This document shows positions 45,534-49,955 of a stretch of DNA of 64,000 nucleotides, in pieces. Origin of the DNA: Marinomonas sp. SBI8L (lineage in GTDB: Bacteria > Pseudomonadota > Gammaproteobacteria > Pseudomonadales > Marinomonadaceae); the NCBI RefSeq assembly GCF_001624705.1, contig NZ_JSEO01000007.1:1-64000 (forward strand). Reading direction: 5' to 3'. How positions within the stretch are numbered: position 1 is the first letter of the stretch; the number at the start of each line of letters is the position of its first letter. The translations under genes and the position numbers were made by a program. The notes under the pieces were generated by a model. The model was not told the origin of the DNA and did no database searches. It saw nothing but the letters and a program-made list of their open reading frames with translations.

Positions 45534-46274
45534 ATGCAATCTTATTTTGACTTTTCGTCAGATGTCTATTCAAAGGGGCGACCGACCTATCCGCCGGAGC
45601 TCTATCTATGGCTATCCAACCAAGTCAAAAATCAACAGTGTGTATGGGACTGTGCTTGTGGAACGGGCCAGGTATCCATCGATCTTGCGGCTTATTTTGA
45701 GCAAGTCGAAGCGACAGATATTAGTGAATCACAGATAGCTGAAGCTATCCCTCATCGAAAAGTGAATTATAAAGTTTCTCCTTCTGAAGTGTGCGAATAC
45801 CCAGATCAGCACTTTGATGCTATTTGTGTTGGCCAAGCATTACACTGGTTTGATTTAGAGAAATTTTGGCCTGAAGTAAAAAGAACCTTAAAGCCTGGTG
45901 GTATTTTTGCTTGTTGGGGCTATAGCTGGTTAAGTGTTTGCCCTGAAATAGACGATATTATTAACAGCAAAATCATGAGTAAGCTTAAGCCCCATTGGCC
46001 TGAGCAAAATAGAACCCTTTGGAACCAATATGATGATGTGACTTTTCCATTAGAAATGCTGGATGTACCTGAATTTGAATTATCCTTTAAGTGGAATGCT
46101 TACCGTCTTTTTGATTATATGCAAACTTGGTCTGCTATCAGGGCATTAGACCATGATGATGCAACACAGGTACTTGCTGATGCTTGGGATGCCATTATTA
46201 AAGTGTGGCAAGAGCCCTTGGAAAAACGTGAGGTAACTATCCCGTTTTTTGTAAAAGCGGGCCGGGTTTTGTAA
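45534..46274 (+). CDS. Class I SAM-dependent methyltransferase
   Basis: This 246-residue methyltransferase begins QSYFDFSSDVYSKGRPTYP, a form seen in the UbiE/TAM-like and trans-aconitate-type families. SAM-binding motif I is VWDCACGTGQVSIDLA, the acidic strand-2 end is VEATDISESQIAEA, and FDAICVGQALHWFDLEKFW includes a Trp/His segment typical of small-acid methyltransferases. The substrate is unknown. ATG 45534 is chosen over the TTG three bases upstream because AAGGGA is better spaced. A terminator follows 18 bases after the stop. Confidence 0.88.
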   Translation: MQSYFDFSSDVYSKGRPTYPPELYLWLSNQVKNQQCVWDCACGTGQVSIDLAAYFEQVEATDISESQIAEAIPHRKVNYKVSPSEVCEYPDQHFDAICVGQALHWFDLEKFWPEVKRTLKPGGIFACWGYSWLSVCPEIDDIINSKIMSKLKPHWPEQNRTLWNQYDDVTFPLEMLDVPEFELSFKWNAYRLFDYMQTWSAIRALDHDDATQVLADAWDAIIKVWQEPLEKREVTIPFFVKAGRVL

Positions 46275-46291
46275 GGAATTAATCTATGTTA

Positions 46292-46318
46292 AAAAAGAGG
46301 CTAAGGCCTCTTTTTTTG
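46292..46318 (+). terminator. Rho-independent terminator of the methyltransferase gene
   Basis: The stem AAAAAGAGGC (46292-46301) pairs with GCCTCTTTTT (46306-46315) around TAAG and runs into T residues to 46318. Confidence 0.93.
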
Positions 46319-46390
46319 TATGTGAGTGCCTGAAATATAAGAAATTAGATGGTTTTCTTTATTATTAGTGAAATTTATAGAGACAGCTCC

Positions 46391-47194
46391 CTTGATGTCG
46401 AATATGAGGAACAGGCAATATAGGTTAAAGCGTTATCCTAAGTGTCGGTTAACTATAAAAGTAATGATTAATCCTAAAGTGTAATGGCTCTTAGTCTTTA
46501 GAAAGAGATAGTGGTGTTTGCATCCTTGATGTCAAAAATGAGGAACAGGCAATATCAGTTAAAGCTTTACCCTAAGTATCGGTTAAATATAAAAATAATG
46601 ATTAAGACTAAAGTGTAATGACTCTTAGTCTTTAGAAAGAGATAGTGATGTTTGCATCCTTGATGTCAAAAATGAGGAACAGGCAATATCAGTTAAAGTT
46701 TTACCCTAAGTATCGGTTAAATATAAAAATAATGATTAAGACTAAAGTGTAATGACTCTTAGTCTTTAGAAAGAGATAGTGATGTTTGCATCCTTGATGT
46801 CAAAAATGAGGAACAGGCAATATCAGTTAAAGTTTTACCCTAAGTATCGGTTAAATATAAAAAAAATGAATAAGGCTAAAGTGTAATGGCTCTTAGTCTT
46901 TAGAAAGAGATAGTGGTGTTTGCATCCTTGATGTTAAAAATGAGGAACAGGCAATATCAGTTAAAGTTTTACCCTAAGTATCGGTTAAATATAAAAATAA
47001 TGATTAAGACTAAAGTGTAATGACTCTTAGTCTTTAGAAAGAGATAGTGATGTTTGCATCCTTGATGTCAAAAATGAGGAACAGGCAATATCAGTTAAAG
47101 TTTTACCCTAAGTATCGGTTAAATATAAAAATAATGATTAAGACTAAAGTGTAATGGCTCTTAGTCTTTAGAAAGATATAGTGATGACAGCATC
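46391..47194 (+). repeat. Tandem array: six copies of a 134-bp unit upstream of acs
   Basis: Units begin at CTTGATGTC 46391, 46525, 46659, 46793, 46927 and 47061, each exactly 134 bases with no indels. Unit 1 is the most diverged (about a dozen substitutions); units 2-6 differ at only a few positions. Each holds a 34-codon frame starting ATG/GTG-TTT-GCA-TCC (unit 1 lacks that start but keeps an inner ATG) and ending GTG-TAA, behind an AGAAAGAGATAGTG ribosome-binding context. Each also has a possible sigma70 promoter and a hairpin (AAGACTAA/TTAGTCTT). The sequence after the array, at the acs 5' end, is a degenerate seventh relative. It fills the 954-base gap before acs. Confidence 0.95.
47102..47129 (+). 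promoter_or_regulatory. acs: Possible sigma70 promoter in the last repeat unit, reading into acs
   Basis: TTTACC (47102-47107) and TATAAA (47124-47129) are 16 bases apart. The same pair recurs in the other array units, with TTATCC for the -35 in unit 1. This copy would start a leader of roughly 90 bases before acs. The boxes are only moderate matches to consensus. Confidence 0.4.
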
Positions 47195-47228
47195 CTTGAT
47201 AACAAATTTAAGAACTGGAGCAAAATCA

Positions 47229-49184
47229 ATGGAACCTTTGACAGTTGCCGTACCAAGTGCCAGCAAGAAAAACGTCGGCATAGATCAAGAAACATTTGAG
47301 CGTATGTACCAAGAGTCGATTACCAACCCTGATGGTTTTTGGGGAGAGCAAGGTAAGCGAATTGATTGGATTAAAGATTATACAAAAGTTAAAAATACCA
47401 GCTTCGAACGAGATAATGTGGATATCCGTTGGTACGAAGATGGTGTACTTAATGCAAGTTATAACTGTATTGATAGACACTTAGGCGATAAAGCAGACAA
47501 GGTCGCCTTTTTTTGGGAAGGTGATTCAGAAGGCTCTGCTGAACAAATTACCTACCAGCAATTACATGACGAAGTGGCCTTATTATCTAATGGCTTGAAA
47601 AAACTTGGTGTGACCAAGGGTGATCGTATTGCTATCTATATGCCTATGATTCCTCAAGCCGTTTATGCCATGTTGGCATGTGCTCGTATTGGCGCAATTC
47701 ATACGGTTATTTTTGGCGGTTTTTCTGCTCATGCTATTGCCGATCGTCTTAATGATTGCGATGTGAAGCTAGTGCTTACAGCTGATGAAGGCTTACGAGC
47801 GGGTAATAAGGTACCACTGAAACATAATGTTGACCTTGCTGTTGCAAATGATGCTTGCCCAAGTGTTGAACATGTTGTGGTTTTCCCTCATACCCAAAAA
47901 GAGGTGGAGTGGAACGATAAACTGGATGTGGATTGGAAAGATTTAATATCCTCATGTGAGCCAACTTGCCCAGTTGAGCCTATGCAAGCCGAAGATCCTC
48001 TCTTCATTCTTTATACATCTGGTTCAACCGGTAAGCCAAAAGGCGTAGTACATACGACAGGCGGCTATATGGTTTATGCTAGCTTATCTCACGAAGTTGT
48101 TTTTGATCTACAACCAGATGACGTTTATTGGTGTGCTGCCGATGTAGGTTGGATCACAGGACATAGCTATATTGTTTATGGGCCATTGGCGAATGGTACT
48201 AGTAGCGTTATGTTTGAAGGGGTTCCCACTTATCCTGATTGTGGTCGAGTAGGGCGTATCGTTGATAAGTATAATGTTAATATTTTATATACAGCACCAA
48301 CCGCCATCCGTGCCCTAATGTCTAAAGGTGATGAACCTATTCAAACCAGCCACAGAGATTCCTTAAGAGTGCTAGGTAGTGTTGGTGAGCCAATTAACCC
48401 TGAAGCTTGGTGGTGGTATTACACTAAAGTGGGTAAAGAAAATTGTGCTGTTGTTGATACTTGGTGGCAGACAGAAACAGGTGGCATCATGATGACTCCA
48501 AGAGTAGGCGGAAAAGACATGAAGCCAGGTTCTTGTGTTGGGCCTTTGTTTGGCGTGCAACCTGCTTTGGTAGACAGCGAAGGTAACTTTGTTGCTGCTG
48601 AGGGGGAAGATGTAGAAGGGGGCTTAGTCTTATTGGATTCTTGGCCTTCTCAAGCGCGTACCGTTTATGGGGATCATGAACGTTTCATGCAGACCTATTT
48701 TAGTACTTATGATGGCATGTATTTCACTGGCGATGGTGCACGACGTGATGCAGACGATTACTATTGGATCACAGGTCGTGTAGATGATGTTCTCAATGTT
48801 TCCGGCCACCGTCTTGGTACGGCTGAAATTGAGAGTGCTTTAGTCGCTCACCCTGCTGTAGCTGAGGCAGCCGTTGTTGGTTACCCTCATGATATTAAAG
48901 GACAAGGCTTATATGTTTATTTAAGTCAGGTTGATGGGGTTGAGATTACAGACGCTCTGACTAAAGAAATACGTCAATTTGTACGTGATGAAATTGGTCC
49001 AATCGCTACTCCTGATTTGATGCAGTGGGCAGGTCAAGGCCTACCAAAAACACGATCAGGAAAAATCATGCGACGAATTTTACGTAAGATAGCCGCTAAT
49101 GAGCATGACTCTCTTGGTGATACCAGTACGCTAGCTGACCCTAGTGTGGTTGATGATCTGATCAAAAATCGTTTAAATCAATAA
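47229..49184 (+). CDS. acs: Acetyl-CoA synthetase (AMP-forming)
   Basis: This 651-residue ligase activates acetate to acetyl-CoA through acetyl-AMP. The ANL-superfamily signature [15 protein letters not shown] lies near residue 265. [20 protein letters not shown], the [10 protein letters not shown] adenylate motif, [18 protein letters not shown] and the C-terminal [17 protein letters not shown] follow. The Lys of SGK is the catalytic residue inactivated by acetylation in studied enzymes. ATG 47229 has GGAG eight bases upstream and matches the usual length. An upstream in-frame start (GTG 47181/ATG 47184) would add a leader, [15 protein letters not shown], that is related to the mini-frames of the tandem array. 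A NarL-type response regulator follows. Confidence 0.97.
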
Positions 49185-49304
49185 TCCAACTTGATCTGAC
49201 CGCTCTATTCTTGTTCTCTTTAGTGTTACACTTTTGAGATAAGGGTAGCGCGGTTTTTTGCTCCCTATTATTTATAAAACAATAAAAAGAAGGTGAAGGG
49301 ACTT

Positions 49305-49955
49305 ATGTATTCACTGCTAATTGCTGATGACCATCCTTTGTTTCGTGGTGCCTTAAAAGGTGCGCTGTCGGAGCTATTTGAAAATATTGAGATCAATGAA
49401 ACCCAAGATCTTGATAGCACCCTTACTTTTTTAGCGACAAATCCTGATCTAGATCTTTTGCTGTTGGACCTTAATATGCCCGGCAGTGGTGACCTTTATG
49501 GCCTTATTCGTATTCGATCTGATTTTGTTGATTTACCTGTAGCGGTTATTTCTGGTGAAGAAGATACTAGTGTGATGGCAAAAGTATTAGAAGCAGGGGC
49601 TTTGGGCTTTATTCCTAAGACCAGTCAACCTGTTGATATAGCGAACGCCATTAACGCCATTCTAGAAGGTGAAATCTGGTTACCTGAACATCTTAAAGAA
49701 GCTGTTTTAAATCAGCCTAAGCCTGACTTGGATATGGTTAAGCGTGTGTCTGAACTAACGCCTTCTCAATATAGGGTTTTATGCTATTTGCATGAAGGTT
49801 TATTGAATAAGCAAATTGCTTATGAATTAAATATTTCAGAGGCAACGATTAAGGCGCATATTACCGCTATTTTCAAAAAATTGGGTATCAATAATCGCAC
49901 TCAAGCTGTGTTAATTGCCAGTGAGCTAAAGCTGCAAGTTACGCCTCAGGGCTAA
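49305..49955 (+). CDS. NarL/FixJ-family (LuxR-type) response regulator
   Basis: This 216-residue regulator has a receiver domain (acidic pair IADDHPLF, phospho-acceptor Asp in LLLLDLNMPG at about 53, PVAVISGEED, Lys in GFIPKTSQ). A LuxR helix-turn-helix at about 148-205 follows (ELTPSQYRVLCYLHEGLLNK and ISEATIKAHITAIFKKLGI). ATG 49305 is placed by GAAGGG. It lies directly after acs. This resembles the CrbR/ErdR/AgmR-type regulators that switch on acs with a CrbS-like kinase in Vibrio and Pseudomonas. The kinase is not in the window, so the acs link is inference from position and type. Confidence 0.88.
   Translation: MYSLLIADDHPLFRGALKGALSELFENIEINETQDLDSTLTFLATNPDLDLLLLDLNMPGSGDLYGLIRIRSDFVDLPVAVISGEEDTSVMAKVLEAGALGFIPKTSQPVDIANAINAILEGEIWLPEHLKEAVLNQPKPDLDMVKRVSELTPSQYRVLCYLHEGLLNKQIAYELNISEATIKAHITAIFKKLGINNRTQAVLIASELKLQVTPQG

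Follow-up and report, generated by a model that had tools for sequence, protein, structure and literature searches.

The acetate--CoA ligase gene acs of Marinomonas sp. SBI8L is preceded by a tandem repeat array that lies downstream of a methyltransferase-type gene and runs into the acs leader. The locus was analyzed within a 64,000-nucleotide stretch of this genome, referred to below as the window. Its main features are as follows:

46290..46319, + strand: terminator-like GC stem followed by a T run, 3' of the upstream methyltransferase gene and 5' of the array, identified by eye
46390..47200, + strand: 134-bp x 6.1 tandem array, read here as an amplified acs promoter/leader cassette (Tandem Repeats Finder; homologous array in Marinomonas sp. 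MED121)
47183..47228, + strand: 5' leader of acs, with a GGAG ribosome-binding site and a predicted transcription start near 47189-47191 (based on the likeness of relatives, ACTU geometry and the P. fluorescens leader length)
47229..49184, + strand: acs, acetate--CoA ligase, probable true start ATG 47229 (NCBIfam TIGR02188, 954 bits)
49305..49955, + strand: CrbR/ErdR-like LuxR-type response regulator (best NCBIfam model NF041830 ErdR; Pfam Response_reg and GerE)

The six indel-free 134-bp copies of the original prediction are real: Tandem Repeats Finder returned six back-to-back units between 46390 and 47200 with 0% indels (period 134, 6.1 copies, 95% matches), the last of them reaching into the acs leader. 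A whole-genome search placed the array sequence at a single position in the 5.19-Mb genome. Any two of units 2 to 6 differ by 1-8 of 134 positions; for unit 1 (46391-46524) compared with the other units, the figure is 13-17 of 134. Unit 1 is thus strongly diverged and has a degenerate box, and it looks as though homogenization no longer reached it. A terminator scan of 46200-47300, which also missed the GC stem before the array, returned no terminator-like site between the units.

In each unit, a box resembling the ACTU motif is followed, after exactly 21 nt, by a -10-like hexamer (6/6 units). According to the available sections of PMC5715377, ACTU is the acetate-response motif of CrbR/ErdR. 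It is an imperfect inverted repeat on which the induction of acs by CrbR depends in P. fluorescens; there the motif is located at -52 to -36, and transcription starts 34 bp before the ORF. The same study found an acs fusion to be activated in an E. coli laboratory strain as well. Likeness of the boxes to the ACTU list in Table 4 of the same partly available source was judged by eye. The elements of the units, including a conserved AT-rich element before the box, are:

46469..46485, + strand: ACTU-type box 1, degenerate, two mismatches (matrix score 16.6)
46603..46619, + strand: ACTU-type box 2 (29.6)
46737..46753, + strand: ACTU-type box 3 (29.6)
46871..46887, + strand: ACTU-type box 4, one mismatch (23.1)
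47005..47021, + strand: ACTU-type box 5 (29.6)
47139..47155, + strand: ACTU-type box 6, gene-proximal, part of the predicted firing promoter (29.6)
46507..46512, + strand: GATAGT, internal -10-like hexamer, 21 nt after box 1
46641..46646, + strand: GATAGT, internal -10-like hexamer, 21 nt after box 2
46775..46780, + strand: GATAGT, internal -10-like hexamer, 21 nt after box 3
46909..46914, + strand: GATAGT, internal -10-like hexamer, 21 nt after box 4
47043..47048, + strand: GATAGT, internal -10-like hexamer, 21 nt after box 5
47177..47182, + strand: TATAGT, predicted acs -10, 21 nt after box 6; hexamer and spacing as in 41 of 44 box-bearing relatives and in the last unit of MED121
47107..47139, + strand: 33-bp AT-rich conserved element before box 6, sharing one base with the 17-base box; 32/33 columns identical to MED121
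46437, 46571, 46705, 46839 and 46973 (starts), + strand: the other copies of the 33-bp element, one per unit

The scores come from a weight matrix built on the boxes of 44 other relatives, excluding this genome and MED121, and the array sites rank 1 to 6 in the 64-kb window on both strands. A looser ACTU pattern gave 17 matches in the whole genome, 6 within the array and 11 outside; since the reversed control gave 13, isolated matches to this pattern mean little. Five ACTU-like sites outside the array (L098, L100, L103, L105, L107) showed no plain link to acetate in the ORF listing, which was used here without family searches.

The -35/-10 boxes that had been proposed for each unit were not confirmed. 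In a sigma-70 consensus scan of 46200-47300, one match was returned, located on the - strand, whereas shuffled sequences averaged 4.3. The + strand of this interval had no -35/-10 pair that passed the scan, as would be the case for an activator-dependent promoter. The promoter-like pair backed by comparison is instead the putative combination of ACTU-type box and hexamer 21 nt downstream. Between the two lies the sequence TTAGTCTTTAG (46486-46506 and equivalent positions), which is identical in all 13 aligned units of the two arrays. TTAGTCTTTAG is an inverted partial copy of the box and may represent a further half-site.

Comparison with other Marinomonas genomes

We compared the DNA upstream of acs in 46 Marinomonas relatives, i.e., 49 genomes without our own, MED121 (G036) and G027, the last of which was left out as its acs match covers residues 290-665 only. 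One box close to T[A/T]AGACTAAAGTGKAAT precedes acs in 44/46 relatives, and in 41 of these 44 TATAGT is found exactly 21 nt past the box. A short leader and a GGAG 5' of the acs start codon are visible in the relatives' sequences that were inspected. The exceptions are G043 and G042, which have no box upstream of acs, G046 with GATAGT at 22 nt, and G009 and G020 with TATTCT, the box of G009 lying much further upstream. Box, 21-nt spacing, hexamer and leader of the array units match this single-copy promoter. This comparison supports well the reading that the repeated unit is the acs promoter plus 5' leader, in line with the original prediction, which had correctly related the unit to the acs 5' region and had proposed a multiplied acs promoter/leader.

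The upstream stretches of the 46 relatives contained no such array and only four short repeats according to Tandem Repeats Finder. A genus-wide scan located tandem boxes in 2/49 genomes, our own and that of MED121, the latter being the only one among the 48 other genomes of the genus to carry the array. The tandem arrangement seems to be a rarity, because a strict tandem-ACTU scan of 390 genomes of the order returned our genome alone, with a pattern that would miss alternating boxes of the MED121 type and a draw of genomes that did not include MED121.

The MED121 array has a period of 135 and 7.3 copies with seven boxes and eight -10-like hexamers; again each box lies exactly 21 nt before a hexamer (7/7). 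A similar GC stem is present upstream of it. Box counts are therefore 6 in our genome and 7 in MED121, with one genome per species compared. Relative to the ACTU-type box, three MED121 boxes show one mismatch each. Both arrays have TATAGT as the hexamer closest to the gene and GATAGT at all internal positions.

This distribution of hexamers bears on the possibility that the units are additive promoters, all firing in acetate and yielding transcripts 134 nt apart, so that unit number would set acs dosage additively, as one version of the original prediction would have it. Every unit has kept the box, the spacing and a near -10 sequence, and the terminator scan found nothing between units that would stop such transcripts, although it missed the stem before the array as well. 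However, the internal units of both species carry GATAGT whereas TATAGT is present in 41/44 box-bearing relatives and in both terminal units. A change in the first base of the -10 hexamer is expected to weaken a promoter strongly. We thus consider additive firing unlikely. The simplest reading is that start function would have been largely lost from the internal copies before the species diverged, with the regulator-binding part kept. Alternatively, gene conversion may have failed to extend into the last unit, so that its TATAGT would be an edge effect.

Between our strain and MED121, acs shares 94% of its residues, yet only 133/294 four-fold degenerate sites match, and the intergenic DNA between upstream stem and array could not be aligned by eye. 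The unit consensus sequences agree in 116-118 of 135 columns (two ties account for the range), which differs from the acs four-fold sites with a binomial P of about 1e-22 or less when columns are treated as independent. Using block limits chosen after inspection of the alignment, identity was 16/16 for the box, 32/33 for the 33-bp element, 18-19/21 for the stretch from box to hexamer, 20/22 for the leader copy, 20-21/24 for the stretch from hexamer to TTGAT and, as the lowest value in the unit, 10/19 for the stretch from leader copy to element. The AT-rich 33-bp element (e.g., 46437-46469), CCTAAGTATCGGTTAAATATAAAAATAATGATT, is almost unchanged between these two distant species. Its 24-base core, allowing up to 3 mismatches, occurs 6 times in our genome, 7 times in MED121 and 0 times in the other 47 genomes of the genus.

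The six units of our array group in a single clade (support 0.966), within which unit 1 has a long branch, and unit pairs between species differ at 16-35 of 135 columns. A single clade is expected if recombination within the species homogenizes the units. The earlier suggestion of recent or ongoing recombination thus fits insofar as it refers to homogenization within each species, whereas the array itself is old. The same clade structure and between-species differences, as a mark of homogenization, together with the differing copy number, would also be seen after passive amplification, where a chance duplication of the acs promoter grew, was homogenized by unequal crossing-over and has no effect beyond that of the last unit. 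Neutral units, however, should diverge like the four-fold sites (45% identity) or like the unalignable intergenic DNA upstream. What is seen is that the box, the 33-bp element and the leader copy have hardly changed, in contrast to one diverged stretch inside the unit, and that both species kept 6-7 boxes. Passive amplification therefore appears improbable to us. We also considered whether the conservation could be explained by the array having been transferred recently from one species to the other, which is unlikely given that similarity within the unit is uneven and the flanking genes have diverged. The first windows of acs and of the upstream gene are more alike than the remainder of these genes, and some exchange between the two species may have occurred.

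Coding and RNA readings of the unit

For the acs start, the relatives are again informative. An in-frame stop codon is located directly before the matching acs ATG in G023 and G043, and two codons before it in G003. Because of the stop codons right before the ATG in G023 and G043, the 15-residue in-frame stretch preceding acs in our strain is probably untranslated leader. From the predicted transcription start, we infer a leader of about 40 nt.

The original prediction further included a 34-codon frame in every unit, which applies to five units, two of them with GTG starts; unit 1 instead lies in a 38-codon frame that begins at GTG 46368 and has an inner ATG. These frames could be read as tandem small peptides or as a series of 34-codon leader peptides, and a frame open in five units, with a related one in unit 1, speaks for this. 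So does the finding that, when the bases of one unit are shuffled, only 3.5% of the sequences have 34 stop-free codons counted from a fixed point. As such a frame is found somewhere in 17% of shuffled tandem units, the open frame amounts to modest evidence. The equivalent frame in MED121 has 14 codons and a different tail in 7/7 internal units, and the stretch following the frame is the least conserved of the unit, which argues against a tandem small-peptide family. In addition, the start codon adjoins the hexamer and is thus located at or before the predicted transcript start of its own unit, and the two mini-frames scanned had no Pfam match. A control device is likelier than a family of tiny proteins because an array of this kind also occurs, with another number of copies, in a distant sister species. 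We regard the 34-codon peptide reading as scarcely credible; a peptide of 14 codons may still exist.

The units might also be part of long leader transcripts, acting as structured RNA or as sponges for small RNAs. The small hairpin noted earlier in each unit exists as a 37-nt element in which the box pairs with its inverted partial copy; as RNA it is borderline (z -1.88, with 10/200 shuffles equally good). Two whole units folded no better than shuffles (z 0.72 and 0.21). An Rfam scan of 45800-49400 gave three weak matches, all below the gathering score and none of them meaningful; only one touches the array, at its first bases on the - strand. An array of RNA elements is therefore very unlikely.

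Regulator and kinase candidates

The regulator next to acs scored 206.9 bits against NF041830 ErdR, which is under the curated cut-off of 390. A regulator gene adjoins acs in 28/30 acs loci tested, G043 and G042 being the exceptions. Across the relatives, an acs-adjacent regulator was found in 44/44 with a box and in 0/2 without, adjacency having been taken from coordinates for 18 of the 44. The G042 genome is 77% complete, and its acs flank is present on the contig. With neither an ACTU-type box nor a neighboring regulator, the acs loci of G043 (L018) and G042 (L041) perhaps represent a natural loss of control.

A paralogue of the regulator is encoded at C30:277901-278509 (48% identity, ErdR score 205.1). 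As the paralogue scores alike and the acs neighbor lies below the ErdR cut-off, the acs neighbor is a putative binder of the boxes. The assignment of a kinase is complicated by a second kinase-regulator pair: at C30:274338-278509 (L118, L126), another hybrid kinase and the ErdR-like regulator adjoin each other, possibly as a paralogous two-component pair. In G044, a hybrid kinase gene is found beside acs and the regulator, and its best match in our genome is C1:206990-210421 (66% identity). This C1 kinase contains PAS, HisKA, HATPase and receiver domains and had no Pfam symporter match. The C30 kinase (C30:274338-277871) shows 34% identity to the G044 acs-adjacent kinase and a weak Pfam symporter match (25.5 bits, cut-off 22.8). 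Neither kinase was named CrbS or MxtR among the NCBIfam matches listed. Due to its lower identity to the G044 kinase (34% versus 66%) and its position next to the paralogous regulator, we rank the C30 kinase behind the C1 kinase as putative CrbS, an uncertain order in that C30 alone has the symporter match.

The C1 kinase gene lies downstream of a symporter gene, which was considered as actP and dropped because NCBIfam places it in the VC_2705 family of sodium/solute symporters. An ACTU-type box with two mismatches (L119:1598, C1) precedes a small gene upstream of this symporter. The box has no TATAGT-like hexamer, the sequence at 22 nt being CATCAT. In the same scan, boxes of about equal quality were returned at other loci.

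Discussion

An array with this anatomy is present and conserved in two distant species, and its unit resembles the single-copy acs promoter of the genus. Judged from sequence comparison, we consider it fairly probable that it is an amplified array of CrbR sites feeding one firing promoter, either as an antenna or as a sponge. Phosphorylated CrbR would bind the boxes of most units, with most acs transcription beginning at the unit nearest the gene, which alone has TATAGT. Units with an internal GATAGT would retain the regulator and fire weakly, and we propose that, as a consequence, no polymerase traffic would pass over the real promoter. As an antenna, the array would raise local CrbR occupancy; as a sponge, it would raise the threshold and sharpen the response to acetate. 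Unit number would change via recombination. The fuller proposal is more tentative, namely that a whole response-regulator promoter was multiplied and its start crippled in all but the last copy, that the array serves as antenna or sponge with the 33-bp element maybe bound by a second protein, and that unit number sets threshold and steepness of the acetate switch.

The presence of the array in two species offers a natural experiment on extra activator sites, which could raise occupancy, titrate the regulator or add transcription starts. It also suggests how a tandem promoter duplication can be kept and refined over long divergence.

The closest known system is the acs promoter activated by CrbR (ErdR) via ACTU in Pseudomonas and other Gammaproteobacteria, which, going by the available part of PMC5715377, is alike in gene, box type, position and short leader. 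Here, too, a regulator gene of like kind is located beside acs. In contrast to the one box per promoter described in those sections of PMC5715377, our locus has six boxes in 134-bp units with altered internal hexamers, and the 33-bp element was found only in the two arrays. Tandem-repeat promoters such as that of hmwA in Haemophilus influenzae are comparable insofar as repeat number upstream of a gene can, according to the accessible part of that literature, alter expression. Promoter repeats of the hmwA type consist of very short units that mutate by slippage, whereas each unit here comprises 134 bp with an activator site, a promoter remnant and a leader. In multi-operator and decoy-site arrays, a single regulator has many sites adjoining the gene it controls, and many predicted regulator sites lie beside the target gene here as well. 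A literature search for multi-operator or decoy arrays combined with bacterial promoters found no paper, and the titles and abstract beginnings searched, with subscription journals mostly outside coverage, contained no tandem ACTU or tandem acs promoter array. The arrangement described so far is a single activator box before acs, from which a conserved array of six to seven boxes with the usual -10 hexamer only next to the gene is a departure.
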